In this document: positions 2,679 to 64,000 of the stretch, piece by piece | Position numbering within the stretch: the first letter of the stretch is position 1 | Layout: the number at the start of each line of letters is the position of its first letter | Source: Rhizophagus irregularis | Lineage: Eukaryota; Glomeromycota; Glomeromycetes; Glomerales; Glomeraceae | DNA length: 64,000 bases | Direction of reading: 5' to 3' | Assembly (NCBI RefSeq): GCF_026210795.1 | Contig: NC_089453.1 | Span: forward strand, 808,501 to 872,500 | Made by a program: the position numbers and the translations under genes | The notes under the pieces: generated by a model | The model's input: only the letters and a program-made list of their open reading frames with translations | The model's database searches: none | Told to the model about the DNA's origin: nothing

Positions 2679-3167
2679 ATGTCACACCCAGGACTCTTGT
2701 TAATTTCAACTGTAATCTCAATTCCTGAACATATTGAAGTTGGAAAGTTAATTGGTCGTGAAGGGCGTAACCTAAAACCTATTAGTGCTAAGACCGGTAC
2801 ATTTGTTAGTGTTAATACAAATACAAATCCAGCACAGATTGAAATTAAGTATAATCCACATTATTCACCATCTAACAATCAAATCAATGAAGCAAAAGAT
2901 TTGTTAAATAATTTAATCAAGAATATTGAAAAGGAAGAGAAAAGGAATATACGTCTTTTGGAAAAGAAGAAGGAAAAAAACGTTGGATTTCTAGATGATT
3001 TTGATAGTGGTACTGTTAGCAACAATCGTGTGGTATCAAGATATCAAAAAGAAATTACTGTGAAGAAAGAGAAACAAAGATCTAAGAAAAAAATTTCGAC
3101 TACTATTAAATCTTATATGGAAGGAGGACTGAAGGAAGGATGGGAGATGGAAATGGAAAATTGTTAA
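2679..3167 (+). CDS. KH-domain putative RNA-binding protein
   Basis: This is a single-exon gene for 162 residues. Residues 11-75 resemble a KH domain: the GxxG loop sits in IGREGRNLKPI (Gly26-Arg-Glu-Gly29), preceded by a hydrophobic strand (ISTVISIPEHI) and followed by TFVSVN and IEIKYN strands and a helix. KH domains bind single-stranded RNA or DNA through this loop, so an RNA-binding role is likely. The C-terminal half is rich in Lys/Glu and Arg/Lys and has no recognisable fold, which is common in small RNA-binding proteins. An AATAAA-like poly(A) signal follows about 40 bp after the stop. The target RNA and cellular role cannot be told from the sequence. Confidence 0.75.
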   Translation: MSHPGLLLISTVISIPEHIEVGKLIGREGRNLKPISAKTGTFVSVNTNTNPAQIEIKYNPHYSPSNNQINEAKDLLNNLIKNIEKEEKRNIRLLEKKKEKNVGFLDDFDSGTVSNNRVVSRYQKEITVKKEKQRSKKKISTTIKSYMEGGLKEGWEMEMENC

Positions 3168-4330
3168 GACTATTGACTTATCTTATATATTAGAGTATAA
3201 GTACAGAAATAAATATATTTTAGAAGTTTTCACCTTTTTTTTTCATTTGGAATATTATTTAAGAGAATTTGTATTTACGCATCCTGCACAAAATGAACAA
3301 ACGTATCCCTCTATGTTTGGCAATTTGAGATTAGGATATTAATTGTACAATGTGATAAGCCCTTCTATGTATTTATTTTGGAATTTCTTTTTTTTTGTAA
3401 TTATATAATACTGCATTTGTGCAGGTGTGTAAAAAAAATAAAACTCCATTATTTGAATATTACTCATAAAAATATTAAAATGCATTCGTAATCATAAAAT
3501 GTGTTAGTACAATTAAATGAAAATTTTATCGCACACAACGAACATGCGCTTAAATTATTGTAGTTAATGCGTCAATATGTTTATACATGCTATCCCACAC
3601 TTTACTCTTCGTATTGAAATTAACGTAGAATCAACTCCGATGGATCGTATCATTTCGTGCCAGTAACGTAAATAAAAAGGAAGAAAAAGATCATAATATT
3701 TGGTAAAATATTAAAAAAAAATCTGAATTGAATGAAGCGATATTTAAATGTTGTGTATTTATATTAGTAATTGAAAGAAACACAAATTAATACTGATCAA
3801 TTTTTAGACCAAATTAAAATAAAAATCATCTAGAATGTACATTGCTAGCTAACGCTACTTCTCCTCAAACAGCATTATCTATTCGGATAGTTAACTGAAG
3901 TGCAGAAATTCTGGTTCAATAAACTTCTACCGAGTTGACTTGTGACTGACTCAACTCGTTCATATATTATTAACTAGAAATTCAATCTCTACATTCTTAC
4001 ACTGCATCAAGGAATGTTTAAAAATAAGTGACATATTGCTTTATTTCCGAATAATATGCAATTGAGTAATACTTTTCAGTCAGCTAACAAATAGCTATGC
4101 CGTATTCTCATTAGTTTTATCGTTTTATCCACGAATTCTATAATTTTTATCTACGATTAAAATACCTAGCTAAACTAAAGGATCTTTCACAAGAAGAAAT
4201 TTATTTATTGAGAATAATTTGAATAAACTGTTATGAGACCAGAGTGGTAAACGTATTCGTGGGTGGAATTTTATAATAATTGATACTAAGGAATTTTTAA
4301 TTAGAAAATTCGATAAAATTATATATTATT
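3168..4330. other. Intergenic stretch
   Basis: I found no open frame or repeat that I can support. Short, slightly GC-richer patches near 3840-3960 carry no recognisable signal. Confidence 0.6.
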
Positions 4331-4540
4331 GTCCGGAGCGAAGCGAAGGACTATATATGTCTACGCACTATGATGATCTATGGAAATAACGTGTAAATTT
4401 TCAATCACGTGAGTTTCTCTGTCCAGGAATTCCAAGGCGTTATGCTGCTAATCAGCAGAAAATTACCGGAATTCCAAGGCGTTATGCTGCTAATTAGTAG
4501 AATATCGCTACATCTTTATTTATTATACCTCGCTCCGGAC
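4331..4540. mobile_element. Short MITE-like element with GTCCGGAGCG ends
   Basis: The sequence starts GTCCGGAGCG and ends CGCTCCGGAC, a perfect 10-bp inverted repeat spanning 210 bp. Inside, a 42-bp unit beginning GGAATTCCAAGGCG is repeated in direct orientation at 4426 and 4468. There is no coding capacity. I could not identify a clear target-site duplication, so the class is unknown. Confidence 0.55.
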
Positions 4541-5758
4541 TTACAACGGTTCCCGTTTCCTAGTTAAGTAATCCGATCAGTTCTCATAATCCGGGCCGGT
4601 TCGTCGGTTCGGATCCGCAATATCATAATTTTATATGAACCGAAATTATTGACTATTTTGGTGTTGATAATAATAATATTATCGAACTATTCATAAAATT
4701 TTCATAATAAAATTCCATTATTATCCAATAACTTTATTATTATGCCAATACATGGTAATACAGGGCGACCGAACAAAATAACAATTATGTTAAATATTCA
4801 TAAGATTTATGAAAAATTCTCTCATATTGGATATTATTATTTTTTCGTCATAATAAACAATCTTCGTTTTAACAAAGTAATGATATTAGCTAACATGGCC
4901 AATAAGCTTTAGGACCTGAATTCAGTTTCTTAAGAAACATTATAGTTTGAATATTATTACAAAATTCATATAGGTGAATTTATAATATTATTTTCAAGCA
5001 AAAAAGTCGTTATATTCTTTTCATAGTTTTTAGGGATCGATTAAAAAATAAAATTTGAGGACAGAATGAAATAGCCAGATATATTTATCATTTAAGCAAC
5101 TTAAAAATTCCTACTTATATAACATATTTTCGCGGAAGATCAAGGAGAAAATCCAATTAAGTAAACGAACACTAATAGATGACAATCTTTTCGTAATTCA
5201 AATTTTCGACTTGTTCACTCTCGCTAAGCTTGTGGAAATTCCGTCTATCTTTTGGAAATAAATTATTTCATATTAATTATAACCAGTCAATCATAGCTAA
5301 TCTCTCAATATTTAAAAGTTACAAGGTTCACGTTTATTAATTTATTTGTAAAATAAATATTTTCTGATAATTAATGTAATTAATGATAATTAATGAAAAA
5401 AATTTTGAATAAATTCTTTACAATCTTTACAAGGGATCAATTGATAAATAAGATTGTTCTCCAGTTTGATTAACATTAAATCAAAAATACTTATCAACGG
5501 AAAATTGTATAGTCACGCAACATTTAACTTATTTTGAGCTAAAATTTATATATTACGAAGTCTTTAACGTGCACGCAAAATCGTAAAATGCATACATTTT
5601 TAATGTATAGTCGTTTACATCAAATTTACATCAAAATCATTGTGCTATTGTAAAATTCCAGACCAAAATACAGCATATCATTAGAATATCCTATATTTAT
5701 AAGAAAAGAAGATAAGTTAAACTTTTTTTTAAATCAATTATTTTCAAAAAATAATGAA
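4541..5758. other. Intergenic A+T-rich stretch
   Basis: This region runs from the MITE to the 3' end of the kinase gene. Bases 4560-4620 are GC-rich with repeated CCGG/TTCGG words. I see no gene in it. Confidence 0.6.
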
Positions 5759-7994: not shown

Positions 7995-9623
7995 TTACCA
8001 TTGATTTAATTCGTATGAGGGAATGATAAAAATTCCATAACGTTTCTTTAACATTTTTAATTCTTTAATCCCCTGAGAGGTCATATCATCCATTCCAACT
8101 ATTCCTAACGTTTTAACAGTTTTCTTTTCTCTAATAAATTTAGTAATAACTTTTATATGATCATAATTCAAATCTACATAATCAATTATAATGGTCTCTA
8201 AAGGAGCATTACAAGTTTTAAATAATTCTTTAAATTGATCAATAGTAAATCCACAACTTAATTTTAAATATTTTAAAGAAGGAGGTAAATCTTGTCCAGT
8301 TAATTTCATATCTTCATAATCTAAATTTTTTGAATTGATAAAAATTTCTAAATTTTCTAAACTTAAACCAAAAAATAATTGATAAAATAAATAATTATTA
8401 TCATGAGGAAAATAATTGGCTAATTTGATTTCTTTAACATTTGGACAACAATCCAATATTATTTCAACAATTATTGAATTAATTAAATCAATTTCTAATT
8501 CTTTTAAAGAAATACCTCCAACTTGTAAAATTAATCCTGCCACATCACTACAAATTGGTGAAAATCCTAATCTCAACTTTTTTAAAGAGAATTTAGATTT
8601 TAATAATACTGAAGTATTTTCAATATATAAACCTCTACAATACCATAAACTTAAATCTTTTAAATTTTCACAAAGAGCTAAAGCATTAAAACAAGCTTCC
8701 GTGATATAAACATTTTCCAATCTTATTATATTTAAAGTTTCATGCCGTGATTGTAAAGAAAAAAGAATTCTTTCGCTTCCAATTCTAACTCCAGATAAGT
8801 TAAATTCATTTAAACATTTTTGAGTACTAATTATACGTGAAATAGATTTATGATTATGTTCAAATATAGGAAATTTGATATCAAGACAACGTATATTAGA
8901 ACATAAATATGGTAAATTTTCTAATAATTTTATGGTATTCGTTGTCATTGGTTTACAATAATCAATTTTAAATCTGGTCAGATGACTTAATCCTGGTTGT
9001 TCGATAAACGTGGAAATTTGTGGAATATCTGAGTGACTAAAATATTTATCTATAATAAAAGATTTTAAAGAAATTGATCTCCTCATAAATAATTTACAAA
9101 GTGTTGTAGCGATTAAAAGAATTTGATCTTGCTTATGATTATTTATAAATGTTTTATTACACCAAATATGAATGGTAGAGTGTACCGCAATTTCTAATTG
9201 TTTATAAGAAAATTCTTCTAAATACATTGAATAATTGAAAAGCGGTTGTCTAATTTCAGGAATTTTTATATTATAAGATTGTAATGATGAACTTAAATTT
9301 AAATAATCTTCACGATCAAGACATGCGAGATATGTATGAATTAATTTGTAACGATTCTCAGTTGATAAAGCTTCAAAAGGACGAGACCATAATAAAGGTA
9401 CTATATTTTTACACCAATATCGATTGACTAAAAGGCATGAATACAATCCAGAATCTTGAGCTTGAACATGTTTAAATATTTCTAACATGCATTCTGTTGG
9501 TAAGTAAGGTGCAGGTATATCAGAACGTTTTCCGTGAAATAGATTGTTTTCAACAGTATCTGCAGCAGTAGATCCAACAAAATTAAGGATAAATTGTATT
9601 AAAAAACAATAAGTAGATGACAT
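7995..9623 (-). CDS. F-box protein with leucine-rich repeat-like C-terminus
   Basis: This is a single-exon gene for 542 residues. An F-box-like motif lies at about residues 40-85: LPTECMLEIFKHV, then LYSCLLVNRYWCKNIVPLLW. The rest is a long series of irregular leucine-rich repeats with L..L.L..C spacing, ending near residue 530. Such proteins act as substrate receptors of SCF ubiquitin ligases: the F-box binds Skp1 and the repeats bind the target. The family is greatly expanded in Glomeromycotina. Oddly, about 38 residues precede the F-box and look hydrophobic (CFLIQFILNFVGS), whereas relatives in this window start almost directly with the F-box. The true start could therefore be later or on another exon. 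Confidence 0.8.
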   Translation of the reverse strand: MSSTYCFLIQFILNFVGSTAADTVENNLFHGKRSDIPAPYLPTECMLEIFKHVQAQDSGLYSCLLVNRYWCKNIVPLLWSRPFEALSTENRYKLIHTYLACLDREDYLNLSSSLQSYNIKIPEIRQPLFNYSMYLEEFSYKQLEIAVHSTIHIWCNKTFINNHKQDQILLIATTLCKLFMRRSISLKSFIIDKYFSHSDIPQISTFIEQPGLSHLTRFKIDYCKPMTTNTIKLLENLPYLCSNIRCLDIKFPIFEHNHKSISRIISTQKCLNEFNLSGVRIGSERILFSLQSRHETLNIIRLENVYITEACFNALALCENLKDLSLWYCRGLYIENTSVLLKSKFSLKKLRLGFSPICSDVAGLILQVGGISLKELEIDLINSIIVEIILDCCPNVKEIKLANYFPHDNNYLFYQLFFGLSLENLEIFINSKNLDYEDMKLTGQDLPPSLKYLKLSCGFTIDQFKELFKTCNAPLETIIIDYVDLNYDHIKVITKFIREKKTVKTLGIVGMDDMTSQGIKELKMLKKRYGIFIIPSYELNQW

Positions 9624-19188: not shown

Positions 19189-20525
19189 AGAATCGGACCG
19201 TTAATAACAACGGCACTATTAACAAATACTATATAATTAAAATATTATTTCTTATTATTATTAGAATAATCTTTAAATTAAACGGTTGAGCATTTTTTAT
19301 TTAATATTTTAACGCCACGTCCAATATAATCTTTGCTGGATGGAGGATACATGAATTTAACTAAATGCATACTGTATAGCGCTGCATACAGTACCCCCTT
19401 GTAATAGTACCCCCTTCAAATAGTACCGGGGTATTATTCAAATTCACATTCGGGTATTTTTGAAAAATACCCCGGTACTAATCAAAATTCGATTTTGAAT
19501 AGTACCCGGATACTAATCATATTCTGACTTAAAACTAATCAAAATTTATGTACTAATTTATTTAATTGTAATAAAATCAATGTACCCCCCTTCCAATATA
19601 CCCCCTTTTAATAGTACCCCCCCCCCTTCCTATAGTATCCCCCCGGGTACTATTCAATCTAAGCGGACTTTCTTGAATAGTACCGGAGGTACTATATGCA
19701 GCGCTATACGGTATGTTATAGGAATAAAAAAGAAATAATTAAGATAAATCTATAATTTTACCTGATTTAATAATCGATTAATTATAAATCCAATTCTTCA
19801 TCTAATTGTAATAATAATATCACATTCAATAAATCTTTTAAGAAAATATAAATTAAGTTGAGAATCGGACCGTTAATAACAACGGCACTATTAACAAATA
19901 CTGTATAGTTAAAATATTATTTCTTATTATACTTAATTATTAGAATAATCGTTAAATTAAACGATTGAACATTTTTTATTTATATTTTAACGCCACGTCC
20001 AATATAATCTTTGCTGGGGGATACATGAATTTAACTAAATGCATATGTTCAGTTATAGGAATAAAAAAAGAAATAATTAAGATAAATCTATAATTATACC
20101 TGATTATAATAATCGATTAATTATAAATCCAATTCTTCATCTAATTGTAATAATAATATCACATTCAATAAATCTTTTAAGAAAATATAAATTAAGTTGA
20201 GAATCGGACCGTTAATAACAACGGCACTATCAACAAATACTGTATAGTTAAAATATTATTTCTCATTATACTTAATTATTAGAATAATAGTTAAATTAAA
20301 CGATTGAGCATTTTTTATTTAATATTTTAACGCCACGTCCAATATAATCTTTACTGGAGGATACAGTACATGAATTTAACTAAATGCATATGTTATAGGA
20401 ATAAAAAAGATAAATCTATAATTTTACCTGATTTTAATAATCGATTAATTATAAATCCAATTCTTCGTCTAATTGTAATAATAATATCATATTCAATAAA
20501 TCTTTTAAGAAAATATAAATTATAA
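19189..20525. repeat. Triplicated ~340-bp tandem unit upstream of a kinase-gene 3' end
   Basis: A unit starting GAGAATCGGACCGTTAATAA and ending near ATCTTTTAAGAAAATATAAA occurs three times in direct orientation: about 19189-19857 (interrupted by a 340-bp insertion), 19858-20190 and 20194-20525. The copies differ by small indels and a few substitutions. The last copy runs to within about 15 bp of the kinase stop codon. No open frame is conserved. This is a tandem duplication of intergenic sequence. Confidence 0.85.
19372..19711. mobile_element. 340-bp TA-flanked MITE inserted in tandem copy 1
   Basis: The element starts CTGTATAGCGCTGCATA and its other end, read on the opposite strand, starts CCGTATAGCGCTGCATA. 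It is flanked by TA on both sides (19370-19371 and 19712-19713). Copies 2 and 3 of the surrounding tandem repeat preserve the empty site GCATATGTT with a single TA, so insertion at TA with TA duplication can be read directly. TA duplication is the hallmark of Tc1/mariner elements. The interior is made of AGTACCCC/GGGGTACT words and has no coding capacity. Confidence 0.85.
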
Positions 20526-49674: not shown

Positions 49675-50290
49675 AGCGATATGGTTGACGCACCTATTAT
49701 AGACAGGTACCCGATCTGATCAGGTCAGATTTGATTATTTATAGGAAATATAAAAATAACAATAGTAACTAAGAAATTTGTATCATTTAGAGTAGATTTC
49801 TATTGTAATCAAAATAAATATTTTGAAATTTTAATATTATGTTTATTATATATATTAGTTGGTATACTGATATATCAAATAGTAAATGACCTGATTGTAC
49901 TTTATTTGAATAACCTGATTAGAAATTATTTGAATGTCCTGAATGAATATTCTGATCGGAACACAAGTGTCGCAACAATCGGGTTCCCCAATTGATGAAA
50001 ATAAGGACCAATCAGGGTCAGATTTCAAACTGCTGATACGATATCTAATATATGATGTAGCATAATACGCCTGATTTGGTTTTATGTTTTAACTTTAATA
50101 TAGGATCTTATATGTAGTAATATAGAAATTTATATAATATTTAATAATCATCATGTAACATTATTTATTTTGTAACAATGTAGCATTAATAATTTTAACT
50201 TAAATTTGTCGTTGAATCAACATAAATTGGTGCTTCTAAAGACTCATCAAATAAAATCTCTGCTGGATGAATATCATGTTCACCACTTCA
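49675..50290. other. Intergenic stretch
   Basis: Bases 49700-50040 contain scattered CTGATCAGGTCAGATTTGAT and CCTGATT words in both orientations, suggestive of another worn phrase-type element. No gene. Confidence 0.4.
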
Positions 50291-50427
50291 ATATATATAT
50301 GGGTTTACCACAAATTCCCGACAACCATAATATCGACAGTCTACAATTCCGACACCAAAAATCCCGATAAACCCAAATCCCGGTTGAAGCAAAATACAGT
50401 TAAAATTCTTGACGGTCAAAATCCAAG

Positions 50428-52783
50428 TTTTTTTTTTTAAAAAAAAAAATATATAAATTTTATAAATTTTTAATTATAAATTATAGTACTTGTAGCGATT
50501 AATATTACAATTATTAACCAATGCTAGCAGATGATTGGTAAGGATTTGGCCACGTAGTGGCCAAATCTGTCCAATCAGAATGCAGCATTGGTTAATAATT
50601 GTATATTTATCAACGCAAGCACAATAATGATATTATCGTGTAACATTATGATGTTTTATTTAAACTTTTATTAAACTCGAATTAAACTCATAAATTAAGC
50701 TTTTATCATTTTTTTCTTTATCCAATTTCATTTCTCTCCATTTCTGACTCTCTTTTTTACACAAAACCTTTCTATTAATATTTTAAAGATGCAAGATAAC
50801 AAAGATAAATGACCTTGTAAGAAATTAAAGGTGAACTTTACTTATAAAAAGCCTACTGATGATGAGCTTCGCAATCTTATTGATAGTAGCCGATGTAAAA
50901 ATACTGATTATTCAACTTCAAATTGGATACGAGCTTTGGAAAAATTTAGAACAGATGTTAATTATCAAGGATTGATTGAGGAAGTTGATACAAAAGAAGA
51001 ATTAGAGGATCAGCTTTGTAGATTTGTTCATGCAATGAGAAAAAAAGATGGTTCTGAATATCATGTTTCTTCAGTTAATAGTTGCATGTTTGCAATAAAT
51101 AGACATTTGAATAATAAGTCTGTCCTTTCAAAACCTATCAACATTATGGATAAAGATCAATATTACAAATTATGGCAGATTTTGAATGGTAAAGTTAAGA
51201 GTCTTGTGAGTCAAGGTCGTGGGGAGCGTAACGGTGCTGATGGATTTACTGAAGATGATCTTCTTCAGATTCTTGATCATCCAGCAATGTTTGGCAATGA
51301 TCCTGCCAGTTTATTATATAGGATCTTTTTTTTTAATGCTATTTTTTTAGGATTAAGGGGAGGAGAACATTTCAATTTGCAGCTTCAAAATTTTATACGA
51401 AGAAAAGACAAATATGGTGGATTTGATGTTATCATTTACAAATCAAAAACTAATCAACACGGTGCCAATAATATTGAATCTCAAGGTGATAAGTTATACA
51501 TTCCCGAAATACCTAGTATCATTGAAATGTATGAAAATTATTTTACCAAACGTCCAACCCAAGCTGATCCACATTTTTATTTAAAGCCATGCAATATTAG
51601 TGAAGGTAAATATTAAAATTTTTTTTTTTTTTGACAAATCTAATGTCAAAATTTTTATTATTTTTTATTTCATATTATACAGTTGAATTTAATGGACAAT
51701 GGTATCATAAGCAACATGTGTCTGAAAAAGAAATTAAATCCTTTATGAAAAAAATTGTTACCTTAACCGGAATTAACGTGGATGATTGCAAAATTAGTAA
51801 CCATTCAGGTCGGAAAACGCTAGTACAAATATTAAAGCGACGAGGATTTTCAAATTCTGAATGTATGGCAAGTACACGACATAAGTCTGAGCAAGGGCTT
51901 GCTAGATATGAGCGTCCAGAAACTGAAATTCAACGAAATAATGCTTTTAACCTTGTTGAAGCATTTGGTTTTAATAAAAATAATATTCGATCAGGTAAAA
52001 ATTTGAAATTTTTAATCATTAATAAATGACCTGCATTCTAATTTTCTTCTATAGAAGAATCAATGGAACAATCAACTTTATCAACAGACAATTTCGTTGT
52101 TGCAAAATCATTACTTAATGGTAATATTCTAAAATTTTATTCTATTTTTTGATAATCAATTTAACAAAATTGAACTTTTTCTAGATAATCGTGAAGTTAT
52201 TAATTCGGCAAACAGTAATATTAAAGTTACAAGAAGGCCATTAAAAGATTTAAATGAAATTCAAGAAAATAAAAGTCAAAATTTGGAAGAATTAGTTTCG
52301 AAATTAACAGCTGATAAAGTTTTTATCAATTCTGTTATTATTTTCAATAATAATCCTAATAGCCATAATTAATAATTATAACACATGTATTGTTTATAGC
52401 TTAAATATAGTTTATTGTAATTATTAAACTTACGCATAAAAAATAATTAAATTACAAATCATCAACATCATACAGCGGAGCACGATAATTAAACAAATAA
52501 TTTTAAAAATACAGCGGCGCAGTATTGGGTCTTAATTTATCCAATATAATTAAAAATATATTTTGAATTATTTGATTAGTATTAACGAAAATATTTGTAA
52601 ATTTTATCAATACCAATGCAAATCGTTTGCATATTAATGCAAATTAACTAACGTTACTATATTATTAATGAAATTAAAAGGAAAATTTTTTATTTTAACT
52701 AAAAAAACTATGTACAGTATATTACTAAATTACTAATCTTTCGAAATTAGAAACAATTGCATTAAAAATTAACTAATCTCAAG
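50428..52783 (+). mobile_element. Crypton-like insertion inside the left arm
   Basis: This segment interrupts the otherwise collinear left arm of the 5.2-kb element. It contains the tyrosine-recombinase gene and has no inverted ends of its own, as expected for Cryptons. CAAG is found at both junctions (50424-50427 and 52780-52783) and could be the short target repeat. The boundaries are inferred from arm pairing and are good to perhaps 20 bp. Confidence 0.5.
50789..52372 (+). CDS. Crypton-type tyrosine recombinase (QRICH1/ZMYM2-like DUF3504 domain), four exons
   Basis: Coding exons end at 51605 and continue at 51683-51994, 52055-52120 and 52185-52372, with all introns in frame. Counting from the first open GTG (50831) there are 446 codons. 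The recombinase residues are all present: Arg176 (LGLRGGEH), His299-x2-Arg302 (NHSGRKT), His325 (TRHKSEQ) and Tyr334 (LARYERP). This set defines tyrosine recombinases, and the surrounding sequence resembles Crypton proteins and the animal ZMYM2/QRICH1 domain. The last two exons encode a Lys/Glu/Asn-rich tail. The start is odd: the only nearby in-frame ATG (50789) is followed by a TGA at 50810, so either an upstream exon exists or the 5' end is damaged. It would cut and rejoin DNA during transposition. Confidence 0.8.
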
Positions 52784-52899
52784 CTCATTCCAGTCAGGAT
52801 TTTGGCTCATCAGGAAATTTTTAAAGGATATTCATCGATAATTATCACTTTATCGATAATTATCCCATTTTATCATACCAAATAAATTAATAACTAACG

Positions 52900-53210
52900 T
52901 ATTATGATGATTATCGATAAATAACTGGAAAAATATAATGATATTTAACATTAATAATATTTATTGATAATATATTTAATGGTATTAAGTGTTAAAAATT
53001 TTATCGATGAATTTTTATAAGATATTTAACATTAATGATATTTATTGATAATAATCTGAAAAACAAATAATGATATTAAGTGTTAAAAGATTTTATCAAT
53101 AAATTTCTGTAAGTTTTTTAACATTATTGATATTTATTAATAATTATCTGAAAGATAAATAATGATATTAAATGCATGTTAATTTTATTGATAAATTTCT
53201 GTAGTGATAA
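52900..53210. repeat. A+T-rich tandem repeat, ~100-bp unit, three copies
   Basis: About three direct copies of a unit containing TTTAACATTAATGATATTTA, TTGATAATNATCTGAAA and AATAATGATATTAAGTGTTA run from 52900 to 53210, with TATCGATAATTATC palindromes just upstream. It lies inside the composite element, between the recombinase gene and the structured array. No coding capacity. Confidence 0.7.
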
Positions 53211-53379
53211 TTTTCGTTTATGTTACTTATTACCATAAGGAAATATTAAAAATAAGTTACGAGAATTCTTTATTTCACAATCACGTGTATCATATCATGT
53301 GACACGTCTTTGATTATACTAAGACGCGACGCGATAAGATTTTTTTAAACTTTTTTTTTTTAAAGTTTAATTAAACACT

Positions 53380-53600
53380 TCTTTTGCCTTTCCCATTTCT
53401 CTCACCTGTTTCTCTTTCGCACTTTCCCTTGCACCCACTTTATCCTTTTCTTTTTTTTTGTTTTCCTTTGTTTCATTCCATTTTTTTCATTTTTGGCTCT
53501 CTTCTGTTTTTCCCTTTCCCTTTTTTCGTTCCGTTTAGTTCCCTCTCCCTCTTCCTCTCTTTCATTCCTTTCTTTTAACCTTCCCTTTAATTTAAACACT
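53380..53600 (+). promoter_or_regulatory. Strong pyrimidine-rich tract upstream of the structured array
   Basis: About 220 bp is almost pure C/T on the plus strand (TTTCCC, CTCTCC and similar). CT-rich tracts mark core promoters and transcription starts in many fungi. Its position directly before a series of exon-like units makes it a candidate promoter for a plus-strand transcript. The open frames on both strands here are composition artefacts. Confidence 0.35.
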
Positions 53601-53640
53601 TTTCTTAAAAAATTATAAAATTTTTTTGAAGTTACATTTT

Positions 53641-55095
53641 CGTTTCAGCGGTTCCCTTGTAGGAATGTAAGTAAAATTTTATTTTAAACTTATTTTTTTT
53701 CGCATTTAGTACTTAATCTTCCTTTTTTTTTTATAGATTTTGTCTTCATTTCGGCCTTCAGACATTTGGGAATTCGCGTTTCTGTTTAGAAGGCCAAAAA
53801 ATGTGTTGAAATTCGGCATTTTTTTCATTGACGAAACATTTATTAATGTTTGGAGTTTTTCTTTTTTTTTAAAAACGATTTTCTGGATTTATTTGGACGC
53901 GTGAGTCTCTTTGGCTTTTTGACTCAGGATTTTGGTAAAACACTAATTTTTTATTAATTTTTTTTATTTTTAACGAACTTTACTAAAAGTTCATTTCTTT
54001 TTCTTTTTTAGGCGGTTCTTCGGCTCTTCAACAAGGGATTTTGGTAAGACAATAAGATGATATTTTTTCTTTCTTTATTTCTTTAACGAAAGTTAACATT
54101 CATTTTTTCTTCTTTTTTTAGGCGTTTCTTTCGGTCTTGAAAGGGAGATTAGTGTGTAATTTTCTTTTGACTTGGGATTTTGGTAGGCTAATTATTTTTA
54201 CTTTAAGTTATTCTTTAACGAAGTTTACTAACTGACCGTTCATTACTTTTATTTTATAGATGGCCGTTCTTTGAAAGGCGAGTATCTTTTTTTATTTATT
54301 TTTTTTATAAGAAATGTTATTCATTTCTTTTTTTTTTTTTGTAGGTTCGTTTCAGTTTGAAAACTGAGAAACGGTCCAAATGGTTAGTTTCACAAAGTTT
54401 TATTTCATTGTGAAGCTTTAATTTCTTTCTTTGAGAAACGTTATACTAACGTTTCTTCTTTTGTTCTTTGTAGGTATTCTCTGGATTCCTTCTGAACAGT
54501 TACGTGATTAGATACTGAAGTTTCATTTCAAACTTCAGTTTGTTTTTTTTTTAATATTTTTAAAGAAACGTTACGTTTCTTTATTTATTTTTGTAGGTTC
54601 CCTTCAGCTTTCGATTTTGGGTTGGAATGCCAGGTAAACTTCAAAGAAGCTATCTTTTTAGTTTTTCTGAAAACGTCTTATTAACGTTTCTTTATTCTTT
54701 TTTGTAGGTCCCTCCTTCTGGCTTTAATCTCGGATTTCTATTACAGGTAGTTTCAAAATATGGTTGGTGAAGTTTTGTAACAATTTTCGGTATGAAACTT
54801 TTAAAATATTTTTTTGCTTTTTAAGAGGAACGTTTCTAACGTTCTTTATTATTTTTTTTTAGGTTCTGTCCAGTGTTGAGCTTTGGATGCAGAAACGGTA
54901 AATTTCACAACGTTTTGTTGTGAAACAATTTTTTTTATTTTATTTTATTAATAGAAACGTTTTCTAACGTTTCTTCTTCTTTTCTTGTAGGATTCTTGAG
55001 AATTTGCTGGATCGGGTACCAGTAACAGGGAAACTTTGATTTTTTTTAATATTAATATTTTAATAGAAACGTAAACTTCACTTGTAGGTTAGATT
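53641..55095 (+). repeat. Array of ~10-11 mini-exon/hairpin units
   Basis: Each unit of roughly 100-150 bp has, in order: a pyrimidine tract ending in TAG; a GC-richer segment of about 30-60 nt often starting GTTC or GCG and ending near a GTAAR/GTAGN donor-like word; usually a first hairpin; then a second hairpin and the next pyrimidine tract. TAG-ends lie at about 53736, 54011, 54121, 54259, 54344, 54474, 54596, 54708, 54862, 54990 and 55088. The second-hairpin stems vary but stay paired: AAACATT/AATGTTT (53834), GAACTTT/AAAGTTC (53975), AAGAAATG/CATTTCTT (54309), GAAACGTT/AACGTTTC (54455), GAACGTT/AACGTTC (54828). There is no long open frame. It may be a spliced non-coding RNA or a structured satellite. 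Confidence 0.7.
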
Positions 55096-55531
55096 TGATT
55101 AGATTAGTATATATTTAGTATAGATTTAAAAATGTATCATTTGTTATTGAATAACGCAATAAATAAAATAATCTAATTTAACAATCTAAAATTATTTAAT
55201 CATGAATAAATACAATGATATTTAACTATAAATAATATAACGCTATTTAGCTGTAGTGATAATTATCGATTTTTAACTGTATTGATGATTATTGTCAATT
55301 TAATCTGATTTATCCATATCGATGCTACTCGACGAGTGCGATTATTATCGATATGTGTCACGTGATCTTTTATCGATATATATTCCCCAAAAAAATTTCC
55401 TGATGGCTGTCAAATTTTAGATCATCGGGATTCTGTGACTGTCAGGATTTTAATTCAATCGGGATTTGCAGGGTTATAAACTGTCGATATTATGGTTGTC
55501 AGGATTTTTGGGAGATCCCATATATATATAT

Positions 55532-55896
55532 GTTGTACGTCAGGTGTCGATTTGCTGACGCGCGTCAGATGCCAATTTTGAATAGTTTCTTATAAGTAAA
55601 CATTTTTATTTATTAATTAAATTGTCTTTTATTTTATAAGTAAATCTGTGCATCATAATAAATACCATTAATGCTGAATTATATATCACAGATAATGTTA
55701 CGATATTCAAAATTTTAGTATAATTAAACATAATTTTTCAGTCTTAATGTGCTTTTATTTCCTAAGTAAATTAGTTCATCACATTTTTAAATAGATAATG
55801 CTAAAATTTCAACACGTTCGGATTCATATTGGCGGAAATTTCCTTCTTTAAAATATGCAGTTGTAATCTGACGCAAATCGACATCTGACGCACAAC
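55532..55896. mobile_element. MITE with GTTGTRCGTCAG ends
   Basis: The left end GTTGTACGTCAGGTGTCGAT and the right end (on the other strand GTTGTGCGTCAGATGTCGAT) form an inverted repeat about 365 bp apart. CTGACGC words recur inside both arms. It abuts the right end of the 5.2-kb element. No coding capacity. Confidence 0.65.
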
Positions 55897-56279
55897 CTAC
55901 TTCAAAATCATATAGTCTTTCGTCAGAATTACCACTGATTTACCTACTATATAATTTTACTATCTATTTTGTATTACCATATCAATCTAATCTTCAATTG
56001 TTTTGGTTCATCACTCAGAATTAACATTATTATTAGTAATATTTTCATTATCACTTTTACTACTTTTACTGTACAATTAATTTTCTACATTTTATAACAA
56101 AAATAATTCATTTTTTTTTTACAATATAAACGGAATTTATATAAAAACGTATATCAGACGCATAAAAACGTATCAATTCCATATAAAGAATTTAAAAATG
56201 ATATAGAGTCGGATATGGAAGAATGTGAGACGTAGTGATTTTCAATGCTTTTATGCTGTATTTTAATAATGGGTTATCT
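55897..56279. other. Intergenic stretch
   Basis: A+T-rich, no feature supported. Confidence 0.6.
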
Positions 56280-56521
56280 GCCCTATAAAAAAAAGTTGTC
56301 CAAACACTGTTCGGTTTTTTGTTTGGAAAATTGACCCCGTTCCGAAATTTACTTGACATTTATTGGACATTTATCATGATATTGTACGTTTTTTATGTGG
56401 TTGAAAATTCTCGATCTCTGCATCTTGTATTAAAGTGTGACAAATATTATATAATAACGTGCTAGTGTTCGGAAATTGACCCCATTCCGAATATTTATCA
56501 GACAAACATTTTTTATAGGGC
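56280..56521. mobile_element. MITE with GCCCTATAAAAAA ends
   Basis: The left end GCCCTATAAAAAAAAGTTGTC and the right end (other strand GCCCTATAAAAAATGTTTGTC) define a 242-bp element. Inside, ATTGACCCCRTTCCGAA occurs twice in direct orientation. The palindrome at 62480 has the same CCCTATAAAAA terminus. Confidence 0.6.
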
Positions 56522-56640
56522 TATTATACCATTTTAAATATATTTGCGTTCTTTTTCATTTATTGAATTTGGATAAATTGATATTAAAACAAGTAAATGT
56601 AATACGATCACGGACTGTGAGTTACTCCATAATAAAAAAT

Positions 56641-56728
56641 TACCGTAAACGGTTGACTAAGATATCCGAGTATAATACATACAAATTCCAGGGGGTTAAC
56701 CTTGTATTACCATGTATATTACTCGATT
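56641..56728. mobile_element. Second, shortened copy of the GTTGACTAA MITE
   Basis: TACCGTAAACGGTTGACTAA matches the end of the element at 17818. An inner arm (ATCCGAGTATAATACAT) recurs inverted near 56710-56728, but the right terminus is missing. Confidence 0.5.
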
Positions 56729-57076
56729 TTTTTTATAAATAAAATACATTTAAAACTTGTATAATAATCAGAAAAATATTTACGTGTAATACCTAGGCAA
56801 AATTATAATATTTAAATAAGGAGAAATGAGCCTTTTTTTTTTTGTTAAAAAGGAGGATACGATATATAATAATAATAAGACTTTGGGACTTTGGGAGAAT
56901 AACAAAAGAAGAAAGGGCTTCCGTCTTTTCTTGACAATCATGCGAAATACTATAAGTAATATAATTACATCATGATTGCAAATCTGAGTATGAAAAATAT
57001 TATTTCATGCGAAATAATTGATATAATTACATCATCATTTGCATGACTTTCTATTTATGCAAATCAGATCGGAGTA

Positions 57077-58766
57077 TGAAAATATTATTTTAGAGATCTT
57101 TTTTTTTTTCAGGATATTATCATTTTAACGTTCAAGATCGATAAGCAATAAATAATAACTTTATAATCCTGAAAACATTTATTCACGAAAATGTAAGTAA
57201 AAAAAAAAGATTAATGTATTATAAACAACGAGATAAATTTAATAAAAATCATCTAGATAATTCAAAAGGAATAAAATTATTTACTTTTAGTAGTATTACT
57301 TTGTTTTTTATAACTTTAACTTTGAAATGCTAAATAAATTAAATAAACTTTTCTAAAAATTTTTGAATAAATTCATTTAATGCACTCCTTTCTAAATCAA
57401 ATTGTTCAATAATTTCGTTTTTGAATGATATTTTTTGAATCAAAATTATTATATTTTATTATCAATGAAACTAATTAAAATTTAAAATTTGTGATTTATA
57501 ATGTATTAGAGTCAATACTATATACCCAACCCAAAGTTACATTTTTCACAATTTGATTTGGGAAAAATGTGGGATACATTTCGCAAAAATTAATATTTAT
57601 CATAATAAAAAATTGCGGTGTAAAAAATATTCATGAATTCTTTTTTGAATTCTTTTAATTCTTTCAAGTAATATAATCTTTTATTTACATATTGATTATA
57701 AAGAAGAATAATTTTATTGGCGGTCGCTTTATCATTAATTATTGAATTTTAATAAAGTTATCTTTTGATTTTTACTATGAACTGAACATTTAATAATAAC
57801 AATTCTATGAAATAGCAACATTTTGGGACTTACAAAGATACTTATAAAAATAATTTAACTAATAGAGATAATATAAAGTAAGTATAATGAATAAGAATAT
57901 ATAGAAATAATAGAAACTAGAGAAATAATTTGATTTACGTCTTCAATATACTGTAATACCGATGAGATAATAGCTTAATAACATAATAACAATTAAGATC
58001 ATGTACAGTTATATTGATCAAAATAAAACTTTCCAGAATTTCCATGTATACGAAAACAGGTATTGCCATTGAAAGAACCTCGGACTTTCTGTTTCCTAAG
58101 AGTAAAATGAACTTTCGCAACTACATAGTACTCTTGATCTGGAAAATCAATTTCTTTATAGTCACCACTAGTTCCATCACAAGCATGGTAATCTCCTTTT
58201 CCGTCACCAGCTATGCGTTTATGATTTGAATCTTCAATCCAAATTCTACAAGCACCAGCATTCATATCTAAGTATACGCCGACACTATATGCTATATATC
58301 AAACCAAAATGTCGAATTATTAGAAAAAGAAAATGGAGAAAATACCGATTGTAAGAACTTTACCTTCAATGACCGGAGCAAATGTCATGTAGAAAAACAT
58401 GAAAATAGCGGTAAGAAGGTAAAAACTTCGAGGTCTCATATTGGTGTTAGATTTATAATATTACGTTTTGTTATTTTATTACGACAATTCCGTAAAAAAC
58501 AAAATTTTTGGTGGGCATAGTAAGGCTATATATCTATATTTTTTTATTTGTTATCAACCACGCATAACCGTAAAGGGAAGTTAATCAGAAGCATTTGTTA
58601 AATGCCAAGCTTTTTTCCCATAATTTGTTTGGTTCTAAACCTTCTCTTAGTAGATTTTCAAATAATAACTTTTCATTCATTCAAAAAACCTATAATTGAC
58701 AAAAAATTTCGCACATCTCGGGATTTTTTTTTGTGACATTGTAAATCAAAACCTCACAGCAAAATT
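57077..58766. repeat. Segmental duplication, copy 1
   Basis: This is a 1.69-kb segment that is largely collinear with 60803-62428 in direct orientation. The match begins around TTTTTTTTCAGGATATTATC and continues through the secreted-protein gene to GTGACATTGTAAATCAAAAC. Differences are small indels and substitutions, so the duplication is fairly recent. Bases 57410-57700 within it also match the flanks of the foldback element at 46.7-47.3 kb. Confidence 0.85.
57999..58439 (-). CDS. Small secreted protein with four cysteines, copy 1 (two exons)
   Basis: Exons are 58364-58439 and 57999-58291 with a 72-bp intron (GAAG|GTAAAG...TATATAG|CATATAG), giving 122 residues. The first exon encodes a clear signal peptide (MRPRSFYLLTAIFMFFYMTF, then APVIEA). 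The mature part has four Cys: GACRIW, YHACDG, NTCFRI and YNCT, which could form two disulphides. Aromatic and charged residues alternate as in a small beta-rich domain. I recognise no family. A candidate effector or cell-wall protein is an inference from size and secretion. The promoter side has TATAGATATATAGCC about 100 bp before the ATG, conserved in copy 2. Confidence 0.75.
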
Positions 58767-58827
58767 CGAAATATAGTGGACACTTGAAAATTTTTATTGT
58801 TAGGATTGTCGGGTACTCGGGTTACTC

Positions 58828-58954
58828 CTAGTCGGGTTATTAAAAAAGATATATAACACATATATATGATGGCGTAGTATAAAGAATAATAAAGTAATTG
58901 TATATACTATATAATGTAATTATGTTAATTAAAATTTTCTAATAACCCGACTAG
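58828..58954. repeat. Inverted repeat CTAGTCGGGTTATT
   Basis: The 14-mer CTAGTCGGGTTATT at 58828-58841 recurs as its exact reverse complement at 58941-58954. TCGGGT words precede the left arm. It lies inside the 2.0-kb element. Confidence 0.6.
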
Positions 58955-59392
58955 CGATGAATCACGTTGCCACCGCAGTCTTAACAAAAGATACTTTATT
59001 AATAATGAACTAAATATAGTAATGAATATAACCTTTTATAATAAACGATTTTCATCACAATAAAATCTGTCCATAAAAATATTTCAGTTCTCCCTTTTTG
59101 AGTTCCGATTTCTGACATAGTCAACCTTCATGTTTTCCGTCAAGAATAATATTTCCAACTTTGCAAAAAATATAAACTTTACAAAATTCCCAAAAATTGA
59201 TCTTCAAAATCCTTTCCTAATATATTTTAAAAGTTCTCGATCCTAAAATCTAAATATAGATCCTTAACCTTCATAGTTCATAGTTTTACATCATCGCGGA
59301 TGCAACATTTGTAACACAATTTTAATTATTTAAATATAATGCTGCGCCTAATAATTATTAAATTTACTAGTTAAGTCACGGCATTAGTCATC

Positions 59393-60712
59393 GGTTTCCC
59401 GACATCCATTTTCCCGACGTAACCTTTTCCTGATAACGATTTCCCAAAATCCCGAATGGACATTTTCCCGAATAGTATATTTTCCCGACATGACATTATT
59501 CCGACATGACATTATTCCGACATGACATTTTCCCGAAATCAAATTGCGAAAAATGATTCAACTGCAAAAAAAATAAAATAAAAATGAATTTTTTGATATA
59601 CTAATAAATAGAAAAATTAAATTTTATGTTTATTATATTTATTTAATTTACTTTTTGCATAATATTTTCAATGAATTTATTATTTTACAAATGGATTTTA
59701 TAAAAAATCGCCATAGCAAGTGTCACGTGACTTTACATATGTGAATAATTTGTCACCCCGCGTCACATCCTCTAGTTTTCCATTTTTATTATTTATTCTG
59801 GGGACTTAGAATTTTTTCAGTGCAAAAAATACTCCCTATACATCACGTGCTTAATTTCGGCCAAATTTTATAACGCTGGCCAAAATATCCTTTTTTGAAG
59901 CTTTAGGTAACGTTACACAATCCAAAAAAGGCCATTTTATTTTTCAGCAAAATTCAAGTTTTGTTACACAAAACTTCCAAAATAGGAAATTTCTTTGACG
60001 ATCTTTTAATTCCGGCCGGAATTATAAAATCACGTGACACTGGCGATGCATCGCCATGGCGATAAAAAACAAAACCCTTTACAAATTATTACATTTATCA
60101 CGTAATTTATCTTAATTGAGACAATTGTTTTTTAAAAAACACAATTACGATTTCACATATTAAACATATTATACTAAAATTACGTAATTTATTTTTATTT
60201 TTATTAATTTATACCTTTAATAAAATTAAATTTATTATTCTTTGTTTGTTGTAAATAACATTAAAATACCTCAATGCTTTCTTACCCAAATTAAACAAAT
60301 TAAACAGGCGAAAGGAACCATATTTACTATATTTAATAAAGTATTATAAGTAAAAACTTACAAATTGAAAAAAATTAAAGAGAAATAGTATGCGCAATCC
60401 CTCTTAAATAATCTAGAAAGGAATAATCTAATCATCACAACTATTGAAAATGGTTAAAAGACGATTTTCACGGTCAACAATGTAAATAAATTATTGTTAA
60501 ATACTATATACCAAACCAAAGTTATTACATTTTCATAAATTGAATTCGGGAAAATGTCATGTCGGGATTTTGTCTTGCAGGATATTTATCGTCGGGATGA
60601 TGTCATGTCGGGAAAATATGCTATTCGGAAAAATGTCCATTCGGGATTTTGTCCTGTCGGGAAATCGTTGTCGGGAAAAGGTTACGTCGGGAAAATGGAT
60701 GTCGGGAATCGG
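59393..60712. mobile_element. Foldback element with CCCGACAT phrase arms, copy C
   Basis: The left arm (59393-59545) and right arm (60545-60712) are inverted arrays of about eight degenerate phrases like TTTCCCGACATCCATT. The outer part (TCCCGACATCCATTTTCCCG) is identical in both arms. The 1.0-kb centre is A+T-rich with the ACAGGCGAAAGGAACCAT block shared with copy A, and has a nested inverted repeat around CACGTGNTT...CGGCC at 59845-60040. No transposase is present. Confidence 0.7.
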
Positions 60713-60802
60713 TCCGACAACTTACCGGCCGAGTCTGACGATAAAAATTTTCAAGTGTCCACTATATTTCGAATTTTGCTGTAACATTTTATCATCGCGC
60801 AA

Positions 60803-62428
60803 TGAAAATAAAGAAATAAATTATTTTAGATAACTTTTTTTTTCCAGGATATTATCACTTTAACATTCAGGTAACTGATATTAATTGCTAAGCAATAAAT
60901 AAATAATTTTATAATCCTGAAAACATTTATTCACGAAAAAGTAAGTAAAAAAAAAAAGATTAATGTAACAACAAGATAAATTTAATAAAAATCATCTAGA
61001 TAATTCAAATAAGGAATAAAATTATTTACTTTTAGTAGTATTACTTTGTTTTTTATAACTTTATACTTTGGAATGCTAAATAAATTTAAATGAACTTTTT
61101 TCTAAAAAATTTTGAATAAATTCATTTAATGCACTCCTTTCTAATTCAAATTGTTCAATAATTTCGTTTGAATGATATTTTTTGATCAAAATTATTATAT
61201 TTTATTATCAATAAAACTAATTAAAATTTAAAAATTTGCGATTTACAGTATATACCCAACCCAAAGTTATATTTTTCATAATTTGATTTGTGAAAATATG
61301 GGATACATTTCGCTAAAATTAATATTATCATAATAAAAAAATTGCGGTGTAAAAAATATTCATGAATTCTTTTTTGAATTCTTTTAATTCTTCCAAGTAC
61401 TAATATAATCTTTTATTTACATATTGATTATAAAGAAAGAATAATTTTATTGGCGGTCGCTTTATCATTAATTAATAAGCATGCTTTTGAATTTTAATAA
61501 AGTTATCTTTTGATTTCTATTATGAACAATAATAACAATTCTATGAAATATCAATATTTTGGGACTTACAAAGATACTTATAAAAATAATTTAACTAATA
61601 GAGATAATATAAAGAAAGTATTAATAAATAAGAATATATAGAAATAATAGAAACAGAGAAATAATTTAATTGATTTACGTCTTCAATATACTGTAATACC
61701 GATGGGATAATAACATAATAACAATTAAGTCATGTACAGTTATATTGATCAAAATAAAACTTTGCAGAATTTCCATGTATACGAAAACAGGTATTGCCAT
61801 TGAAAGAACCTCGGGCTTTCTGTTTCCTAGCAGTAAAATCAACTTTCGCAACTACATAGTACTCTTGATCTGGAAAATCAATGTCTTTAGAGTCACCACT
61901 AGTTCCATCACAAGCATGGTAATCTCCTTCTCCGTCACCAGCTATGCGGTAATGATCTTCTATCCAAATTCTACAAGAACCAGCATTCATATCTAAATCT
62001 ACACTGGCACTATATGCTATATATCAAACCAAAATGTCGAATTATTAGAAAAAGAAAATGGAGAAAATACCGAATGTAAGAACTTTACCTTCAATGGCCG
62101 GAACAAATGTCATGTAGAAAAACATGAAAATAGCGGTAATAAGGTAAAAGCTTTGGGTCTCATATTGGTATTATATTACGTTTTGTTATTTTATTACGAC
62201 TATTCTGTAAAAACAAAATTTTTGGTGGGCATAGTAAGGTTATATATCTATATTTATGACCAACCATAACCGTAAAGAGAAGTTAATCAGAAGCATTTGC
62301 CGAATTGCCAAGCTTTTTGGTTCTAAACTTCCTCTTAGTAGATTTTCAAATAATTTTTCATTCATTCAAAAAACTATAATTGGCAAAAAATTTCGCACAT
62401 CTTGGTGTGACATTGTAAATCAAAACGA
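60803..62428. repeat. Segmental duplication, copy 2
   Basis: This is the second copy of the 1.65-kb unit. Relative to copy 1 it carries small indels throughout, including in the signal-peptide exon. The match ends near GTGACATTGTAAATCAAAAC, where copy 1 meets the 2.0-kb TIR element. Confidence 0.85.
61730..62163 (-). pseudogene. Small secreted protein, copy 2, with damaged first exon
   Basis: Exon 2 (61730-62016) is intact and encodes the same four-Cys domain with about ten substitutions relative to copy 1 (for example HYRIAG for NHKRIAG, and SAGSC). The equivalent first exon (62089-62163) is one base shorter than in copy 1. The conserved ATG therefore no longer reads into the signal peptide, and the next in-frame ATG gives only a short hydrophobic start (MFFYMTFVPAIEA). 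Splice sites are conserved. Either this copy is a recent pseudogene or it starts at the internal ATG with a shortened, weaker signal. The mature domain itself shows no damage. Confidence 0.6.
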
Positions 62429-62479
62429 ACCGGGTCCTGTTATTGTTTACGGTTACTATAAAACTAAAGAAAACGAAAA

Positions 62480-62654
62480 CCCTATAAAAACGGAATGTGT
62501 TAAATTTGTTGTTCATGTGTAATAAGTGTCTAAAAAAGCACCATTTTGTTTAATTTTCGTTTTTTTGTAATAAGACATAAATCGGACAAAATGGTGCTTT
62601 TTTAGACATTTATACACATAAACAACAAATTTAACACATTTCGTTTTTATAGGG
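62480..62654. mobile_element. 175-bp near-perfect palindrome with CCCTATAAAAACG ends
   Basis: Bases 62480-62549 and 62585-62654 are inverted copies about 70 bp long with only a few mismatches, joined by a 35-bp loop. The ends read CCCTATAAAAACG and CGTTTTTATAGGG, like the MITE at 56280. It is a foldback MITE. RNA read through it would form a long hairpin. Confidence 0.8.
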
Positions 62655-63359
62655 AAAGTATATAACAAAAAAGTACTACAGTCTGCAACATTTTTTGCCA
62701 ACTTTTTCGATGACTCACATTCTTAATATAGAGTGTATCGGATGAGAATAAAATTTTTAACGATTAAACTTCCGGTCACTGGATTAACAGTCGGCATGAT
62801 TTATTTTGTTGCATTTTTTGTTATAACAAATTAACCATAAACAATAAATTAGGACCCGAACAATACCAGATCCTGTGTAATGAAAATTTCAAAACAAAAT
62901 TAATTATGATTGTCGGAGAACGTTATACTTTTACGAATAATTGACTGTCGATCATCGTCACGTGGAGTTATACAAATCTCAATTTTTTTTAAAGTATTCC
63001 TCCAGGCTTTATAAAGGGAACAACATTACTGTTTGATTGTATTACATTTCATCACATATTTTTCCTATTTTGCAGAAAGCAAAATTCGGGGCACAATCAT
63101 TTTGGGCATCTTTCTAATTAATTGGTGCCGCTCAAATTCGAAAAAAAAAGGAAATTGGAGAATGCATCTGTTTATTAATTATTTCGTTGTTCGAATTTGT
63201 GTGTGAAAGAACACGCGACAAAGATTGCCAAAGAACTATTTGAATAAGTTCATCTAATACACTCCTTCCTAAATTCAAATTGTTCAATAATTTCGTTTTG
63301 AATGATTATTAAATCAAAATTATTAAAAAATCTGCTATTTGTTTAAACTATTTAAATAG
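62655..63359. other. Intergenic stretch
   Basis: A 30-codon ATG frame at 62742-62834 (MRIKFLTIKLPVTGLTVGMI...) ends in a hydrophobic helix; it could be a micro-protein but has no other support. Bases 63240-63320 repeat the TTCATTTAATGCACTCCTTT-like block found at 57375 and 61120. Confidence 0.4.
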
Positions 63360-63361
63360 TC

Positions 63362-63595
63362 TTTTTCTGAATACCATTTTCCTGAATATCCAATTTTCTG
63401 AATGCCTATTTCCAGAAATTGATCATTTCCTGAAACTCCATTTTACCGAATGCCAATTTCCTGAATCTCAATTTCTGGAATTATATGAAACATCCAATTT
63501 CCAGAATTCTTTTCTCCTGAATTATTTTATCCCAAATTCCAATATCATGAACCCTGATATTCTGAATGGACATTTCACTGAATTTAATATTATTT
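63362..63595. mobile_element. One arm of a further phrase-type element, cut by the window edge
   Basis: About a dozen degenerate phrases like TTTCCTGAATNCCAATTT run in one orientation from 63362 to 63595. By analogy with the other foldback elements this is a left arm, with the opposite arm lying beyond base 64000. Confidence 0.5.
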
Positions 63596-64000
63596 TGTAT
63601 AATTTTACATCATAAATTAGAATTATTGATTTCATAAACTCAACCTTTATTTTATTTAGTATACTAATCAATAAATTATATATAATGTATAGTATATTAT
63701 AATATGTAATAAACTAACTTGTATTAAAACAAATAAAATAAATAATGCAAAAGTGAGCAGATTTTATTATTCAATCAAAGTATCTGTTTGAAATTTGTAC
63801 CTATACCAAATCTTTTTCTCCTAAAATGTAAATTAATTATATTTACTTGATGTAGTATGTTTAGGAAAATATTATTAAGCACTTAAACTCAGCAGTGGGG
63901 CAGAGAAAAATTTTATTAGCTAAAAATGCAATATTTCCTAATTGATTGTATATTGCCTTATGTTTACTTCACTCCCCAAATTACATATAACATGTTGGCG
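63596..64000. other. Right-edge A+T-rich sequence
   Basis: Possibly the interior of the phrase-type element. No gene seen. Confidence 0.5.

Follow-up and report, generated by a model that had tools for sequence, protein, structure and literature searches.

Tandem arrays of candidate hairpin mini-introns carried by transposons in Rhizophagus irregularis

Results

Organization of the array and its element

The window, i.e. the whole analysed stretch of 64,000 nt from R. irregularis contig NC_089453.1, contains at positions 53641–55095 a tandem array that sits within a 2,598-bp element bounded by terminal inverted repeats (TIRs; 52808–55405). The predicted anatomy comprises a CT-rich tract, 11–12 exons of 18 to about 63 nt, and a conserved last exon with AATAAA. 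The introns, of about 65–115 nt, carry a GT-type donor, a branch motif, a polypyrimidine stretch and AG in this order, and some units are degenerate. The original prediction described about ten repeating units with hairpins; the units and the order of their splice signals were recovered, but hairpins are missing from three of the seven branch sites chosen by motif. The stems that it listed were located in the array, as was the promoter-like CT-rich tract that it placed upstream. The features are as follows.

52808..55405, + strand: whole mobile element of family A, 2,598 bp; own transposase absent; boundaries from homologous loci
52808..52822, + strand: left TIR, CATCAGGAAATTTTT; matches the bounds of the homologous loci
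53380..53590, + strand (approximate): CT-rich tract, putative promoter; can be aligned, allowing for indels, across the four copies compared
53667..53736, + strand: predicted intron 1 (GTAAGT...TATAG); branch site without a hairpin
53834..53851, + strand: branch-type hairpin AAACATT[TATT]AATGTTT; the splice sites of its intron are degenerate here
53935..54011, + strand: predicted intron; branch hairpin GAACTTT[ACTA]AAAGTTC at 53975–53992
54012..54043, + strand: predicted exon, 32 nt
54044..54121, + strand: predicted intron; perfect 6-bp branch hairpin absent
54122..54182, + strand: predicted exon, 61 nt
54183..54259, + strand: predicted intron; branch site TACTAAC, perfect 6-bp hairpin absent
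54260..54277, + strand: predicted exon, 18 nt
54278..54344, + strand: predicted intron; hairpin AAGAAATG[TTATT]CATTTCTT at 54309–54329; donor GC here, GT in the homologous locus L032
54345..54382, + strand: predicted exon, 38 nt
54383..54473, + strand: predicted intron; branch hairpin AGAAACGTTA[TAC]TAACGTTTCT at 54434–54456
54514..54539, + strand: hairpin ACTGAAGTTT[CATTTC]AAACTTCAGT of the next predicted intron, whose donor is uncertain
54561..54583, + strand: hairpin TAAAGAAACG[TTA]CGTTTCTTTA, preceding the acceptor at 54596
54597..54633, + strand: predicted exon, 37 nt
54634..54707, + strand: predicted intron; hairpin AAACGT[CTTATTA]ACGTTT at 54671–54689
54708..54746, + strand: predicted exon, 39 nt
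54747..54862, + strand: predicted intron; branch hairpin GAACGTT[TCT]AACGTTC at 54828–54844
54863..54897, + strand: predicted exon, 35 nt
54898..54990, + strand: predicted intron with both hairpins, TTTCACAACG[TTT]TGTTGTGAAA at 54903–54925 and AGAAACGTT[TTCT]AACGTTTCT at 54953–54974
54991..55021, + strand: predicted exon, 31 nt; uncertain donor for the next intron
55088..55163, + strand: predicted last exon and 3´ end, putative poly(A) signal AATAAA at 55158–55163; exon start conserved among copies
55391..55405, - strand: right TIR, AAAAATTTCCTGATG; matches the bounds of the homologous loci

The carrier is a non-autonomous transposon

Among the six loci homologous to positions 50001–58000 of the window, the matches begin at 52808 in four (L031, L032, L033 and L036), at 52806 in L034 and at 53249 in L035, and they stop at 55405 in five (L031–L035). 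The element has no stop-to-stop frame of 150 aa. In the genome searched (146.7 Mb, 32 contigs), the TIR motif CATCRGGAAATTTTT occurs 265 times versus once for the reversed control, with many inverted pairs at a spacing of 1.7–15.5 kb among the 100 places listed. Between the ends of L051 (8.9 kb, TIRs at 116–130 and 9004–9018) lies a segment that matches Plavaka transposase (PF18759, E 5.8e-24), and no similarity between L051 and the window element was found beyond the 15-bp TIRs. L052, a 6.1-kb inverted pair of CATCRGGAAATTTTT, is crowded with units and has no frame of 120 aa. Target duplications of 2 bp flank five of the seven family-A elements with both ends read (TA in L031, CA in L032 and L033, AC in L051 and CT in L052); the window copy shows only a 3-bp duplication (GCT/GCT) and L034 shows none. 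On the basis of the TIRs and of the transposase-bearing element with identical ends, we class the element as a probable non-autonomous Plavaka (EnSpm/CACTA-type) transposon. The suggestion that the array is carried by a transposon is thus supported by the TIRs, the shared ends of the copies and the Plavaka transposase lying between like TIRs.

A second TIR family (B: L049, L050, L044 and others), with the ends CACTGGTC...GACCAGTG, bears arrays of the same type; the three copies read have 3-bp target duplications (GCA, AGG and AAA). As families A and B both bear such arrays, the same kind of cargo is found in elements with different ends. L049 contains about 18 units of the hairpin mini-intron type, and the cleanest array, with 14 introns, is that of L054. 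The pattern searches suggest that many further arrays exist at a spacing of 120–130 nt.

Several other features were observed. The L054 array (reverse complement, 3043–4930) is regular, has a long CT-rich tract and lies outside the families first found. In L031 (G000:C11:5172500-5178500, positions 729–5285), the family-A copy is nested within a different element, the inverted repeats of which are long and interrupted. About 1.2 kb upstream of the window element, an open frame (50813–51616, + strand) has weak matches to DUF3504 and QRICH1, both under the Pfam cut-off; we take it to resemble a Crypton-type tyrosine recombinase. At 19712–20522 lies a 339-bp tandem repeat of 2.4 copies with 91% matches.

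Hairpins recur at branch sites and donors

To quantify the hairpins, perfect stems of at least 6 bp were counted at branch sites chosen by motif. Such a stem is present at 4/7 branch sites of the window array and at 0/21 control branch sites in the remainder of the window (1–52700 and 55500–64000, both strands), and in 0.64% of 1,400 local dinucleotide shuffles. The share varies among the other arrays, being 12/17 in L049, 4/7 in L034, 3/6 in L043, 2/4 in the second L038 span, 3/9 in L033, 2/9 in L048, 2/12 in L042 and 2/28 in L052; the first L038 span has zero branch sites under the motif rules used. Among 149 distinct donors chosen by word alone, 32 bear a stem of 8 bp or more, with 0.9 expected. 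In L054, perfect stems of 6 bp or more occur on the 5´ side of 11/14 introns, on the branch side of 11/14, and on both sides of 8/14. Genome-wide, the pattern GAAACGTTN{3,4}AACGTTTC has 666 sites, with both strands of each site entering the count, and GTAAGTTTCGN{3,16}CGAAACTT has 636 matches, some of which are both strands of one place; the reversed controls have 0 in each case. A search with a single exact version of the branch hairpin gave no match in viral contigs and one match in bacterial genomes, which is taken as chance.

The T-richness and tandem repetition of the region would fit palindromes that arose by chance or slippage in AT-rich sequence; slippage had already been raised by the original prediction. 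The shuffles and control sequences, with few or no stems, and the empty reversed patterns contradict this explanation, which we regard as scarcely credible.

L052 contains in addition a sub-array of about 10 units (reverse complement, 1500–2680) in which the 3´ splice site itself lies inside a hairpin, TAGGTTCC[AGAT]GGAACCTA, and A-run/T-run inverted repeats occupy the branch region. Hairpins over the 3´ splice site are found at 9 of the 49 acceptor-like sites of the L052 array and at 3/388 sites in control sequence. The frequency is 1/18 in the window array and 1/13 in L038a, both being branch hairpins beside the AG, and none is found in L048, L049 or L043.

The two arms covary

The orthologous intron of the hairpin at 54514–54539 illustrates the change of stems between copies: the window has ACTGAAGTTT/AAACTTCAGT, L033 has GAAGTTTCA/TGAAACTTC, and family B has TCGAAGTTTC[GTTTT]GAAACTTCGA. 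When arms were swapped among 196 motif-chosen units, the mean stem fell from 5.60 (own arms) to 4.21, and 0/1,000 permutations reached the observed value (best permutation, 4.64). For the 78 distinct units without ACGTT the means are 4.27 and 3.03, and again 0/1,000 permutations reach the former. As the units are related, these permutation counts are not strict probabilities.

The 5´ hairpins allow a test on bases that the search left free, since GTAAGTTTCGN{3,16}CGAAACTT sets only the outer stem. The sample was drawn from listed places with at least 7 inner bases in which the next base is C (100/176), A (100/256) or T (66/66), and yielded 126 unique inner segments, each 9 nt or longer. Inner pairs 1, 2, 3 and 4 are Watson-Crick in 120/126, 120/126, 94/126 and 64/108 segments, respectively, and the first pair is A-T in 61, C-G in 36 and T-A in 23 of the 120 Watson-Crick cases. 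The inner run averages 3.17 with the own arm and 0.93 with a swapped arm (0/2,000 reach). Swaps past the third pair within a class lower the match for AAG and CAA (0/2,000 each) and produce no clear change for TAA (670/2,000 reach) or AAA (498/2,000). The inner-pair result is the strongest evidence that what recurs is the pairing and not the sequence.

A covariation count over mixed registers (A1) is weak, with 59.1% paired versus 56.7% shuffled (8/500), and 59.8% paired when slid by 2 columns. The register-7 subset (A2) is 91.9% paired versus 82.0% shuffled and at most 48.4% when slid, the first value being biased upward because the subset was chosen with at least 6/8 Watson-Crick pairs. Covariation between the arms is far above chance. 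The compensatory change described by the original prediction therefore holds across units and copies, but it does not amount to proof of selection on RNA, G-U mismatches being about as frequent as A-C.

The exons are probably non-coding and diverge faster than the intron ends

With the exons of the window array joined, no more than 64 codons run free of stops, and the mean is 65.6 codons with exon order shuffled, which agrees with the earlier statement that no long open frame explains the array. The observed frame length is reached by 154/300 exon-order shuffles for the window and by 78/300 for L049. In L054, an ATG lies at the first donor, exons of 31 and 38 nt change the frame, and the frame started by the ATG stops after 47 codons. 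Copies of the array differ by exon indels of 1, 10 and 14 nt. The exons are therefore probably non-coding, and the frame tests and indels support the non-coding look of the multi-exon RNA proposed originally, of which the transcript is predicted.

We also compared identity by part, with two of the seven exons scored as intron. Between families A and B, identity is 53–54% for exons, 66% for other intron sequence, 78% for branch hairpins and 89–91% for the polypyrimidine-AG segment. The corresponding values are 60–61%, 67–69%, 77–80% and 87–89% for L043 versus family A. For B versus L043, exons (77%) and other intron sequence (75%) do not differ, and branch hairpins and the polypyrimidine-AG segment reach 90% and 97%. 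By this comparison, the predicted intron 3´ ends are the best-conserved part of the arrays. No spliced (processed) genomic copies were found among the 48 matches of one search or among the best of the 334 matches of another; the matches track single exons save for short overlaps. An indel near intron 1 in L038, L046 and L048 does not correspond to a precise loss of the intron, and presence or absence of this intron was rejected as proof of splicing.

DNA transposons are able to carry pieces of host genes. A captured and degenerate multi-exon protein gene (e.g., a repeat-protein or SP7-like effector gene), spread by the transposon and with the hairpins as relics, would have the multi-exon anatomy of the array and an ATG such as that of L054. 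A coding gene was rejected on the frame tests of the window, L049 and L054, and exons that evolve faster than intron ends (A versus B) and carry such indels also argue against a captured one, which leaves this origin improbable. SP7-like effector genes (PMC11333574), presumably of the same species, resemble the array in having repeats and introns; as described there, they encode secreted repeat proteins, whereas the array has no frame.

A comparable layout, with many short introns, short non-coding exons and a pyrimidine-rich 5´ end, is that of snoRNA host genes, and the array could be a host gene for intronic small RNAs of this kind. However, Rfam gave no gathering-level match in the window and none at E<=1 in 53300–55300, and a snoRNA family match is absent from the window introns; moreover, both hairpins, where present, fill much of the 75–110-nt intron. 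On this search of the window the candidate was rejected, and we judge it very improbable.

Selection on RNA is not favored by three tests

A structured RNA under selection would be expected to tolerate G-U more than A-C. The G-U to A-C ratio among mismatches is 29:27 at the inner pairs of the 5´ stem, 29:25 within families and 57:53 at branch hairpins; one set of 5´ hairpins leans toward G-U (47:27, and 30:16 when over the donor word). The folding z-scores (sense/antisense) are −1.96/−3.15 for L049, −2.15/−3.12 for L038a, −2.71/−2.56 for L048 and −1.60/−1.69 for L043; that of the window is −0.95/−1.34, and that of L034 (−0.58/−0.62) is hardly under the controls (0.02/0.05 and −0.44/−0.30). Over these six arrays and two controls, the sense strand does not fold more strongly than the antisense strand, a weak test because the sense strand is T-rich. 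The non-CpG change rates for stem and non-stem positions are 0.0027 and 0.0023 in family B, 0.012 and 0.014 in C, and 0.029 and 0.051 in A, which gives a hint of constraint in family A only. Neither the G-U/A-C parity, nor the strand folding, nor the stem rates favor RNA selection.

Within families, stem changes in resident copies are one-sided in 61 cases and two-sided Watson-Crick in 3. CpG sites change several-fold faster in resident copies of families A, B and C (0.017 versus 0.002 at non-stem positions of B), as expected of methylated repeats. The one-sided changes and the family rates indicate that resident copies mostly decay like other repeats, with CpG fastest, and this decay accounts for much of the mismatch spectrum. 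We infer that pairing is kept or renewed in source elements, which selection or a templated process could each do.

The palindromes may accordingly be a DNA-level feature, renewed through repair templated by the hairpin or through template switching during replication, or kept for a role of the DNA hairpin in amplification or transposition, with any RNA effect a by-product. The nearly pure Watson-Crick and strand-symmetric matching and the folding without sense bias fit such a process, as do the several registers of the hairpins around the branch site, the two window hairpins (54309–54329 and 54561–54583) that persist where the branch consensus is lost, and a 22-nt gap through which one palindrome is absent in L032 and L036. 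Against it stand the recurrence of the palindromes at donors and branch sites, the lean of one 5´-hairpin set to G-U, and the 61 one-sided versus 3 two-sided changes, which give no sign of rapid templated correction in resident copies. We consider this reading a serious possibility, clearly short of an even chance.

Predicted structure and a working model

Donors are predicted to be largely closed in L054 (mean 0.16 unpaired; 12/14 below 0.3) compared with 53 control donor words (mean 0.30; 55% below 0.3). Those of L049 (mean 0.34; 9/18 below 0.3) are predicted to be no more closed than controls, and those of the decayed window copy, with two of the seven positions set 1–2 nt off, more open (mean 0.50; 1/7 below 0.3). 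The branch motif of L054 is predicted not to be closed (mean 0.60 unpaired versus 0.65 for control CTAAC); branch motifs would be as open as controls because the motif falls within the loop and the start of the 3´ arm.

The reading that we tentatively prefer, with a little under an even chance of being correct, is that the arrays are transposon-borne, probably non-coding spliced genes of tandem hairpin mini-introns. The element would be mobilized in trans by a Plavaka (EnSpm/CACTA-type) transposase. Its cargo would be organized like a Pol II gene, in which a CT-rich 5´ tract is followed by mini-exons of about 18–65 nt multiplied in tandem, short introns and a poly(A) signal. No more than two small palindromes would shape each intron. 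The first, at the 5´ splice site, would place GU at the base of the stem, inside it or at the edge of the loop, and the second would show the branch motif UACUAAC in the loop and the 3´ arm. The hairpins may fold locally during RNA synthesis, the 5´ hairpin keeping the donor shut until U1 binding or helicase opening and the second presenting the branch site, such that each intron would act as an independent unit within a highly repetitive transcript. Under this model, source elements would preserve the ends of the introns, with their pairing, better than the exons. The closed donor and displayed branch site constitute a working model in which the donor half derives from the single array L054 and splicing is presumed.

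Discussion

Introner elements are DNA-transposon-like introns. They resemble the present arrays as repeated introns tied to mobile DNA; here, in contrast, the introns lie inside the transposon and do not themselves constitute the inserted unit. Among the open-access papers listed, none describes hairpin mini-intron arrays as judged by title and abstract opening. Within this scope the original view that no equivalent is described stands, but the symmetrical introns of Hypoxylaceae are near in kind (PMC8469720). In these symmetrical stwintrons and sister introns, an inverted repeat of about 45–55 nt makes the intron ends, the introns occupy novel gene positions, and the reacting residues are frequently unpaired (PMC8469720, section 3.5). 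As described there, they share with the arrays a fungal host, small size, self-complementarity and multiplication, and the branch motif of the arrays is likewise predicted to be largely open. The arrays differ in having up to two short hairpins per intron, a tandem arrangement and a location within transposons; they have separate local hairpins and not a terminal inverted repeat spanning the whole intron, the trait of the Hypoxylaceae sister introns.

Plavaka elements are particularly prevalent in several R. irregularis strains, whose genomes contain many unclassified repeats (PMC11075540). The family-A elements are like the non-autonomous Plavaka transposons of that report in sharing TIRs with a PF18759-bearing element; duplications of 2 bp flank 5/7 family-A elements with both ends read, and duplications of 3 bp flank the three family-B copies read. 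In contrast, their interior consists of tandem mini-introns, and the word "intron" is absent from the main text of that paper.

In a broader version of the preferred reading, the genome would contain many transposon-borne non-coding "splicing arrays", whose donors are closed and whose branch sites are displayed by fast-evolving, strictly paired hairpins. These hairpins would be selected in source elements since structure-gated splicing, or a retained, lariat or hairpin RNA, aids persistence, e.g., through nuclear RNA retention or spliceosome-linked silencing. We regard this extension as speculative and rather unlikely.

If the arrays are spliced, a single genome would supply naturally occurring compensatory variants of the same intron design by the hundred, and thus a test bed for the role of RNA structure at donors and branch sites in splicing control; they would also bear on why a transposon would conserve intron ends over exons. 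If they are not spliced, a strong DNA-level force would have to create and renew short palindromes at defined locations. In both cases, some of the unclassified repeats of this genome acquire a recognizable anatomy.
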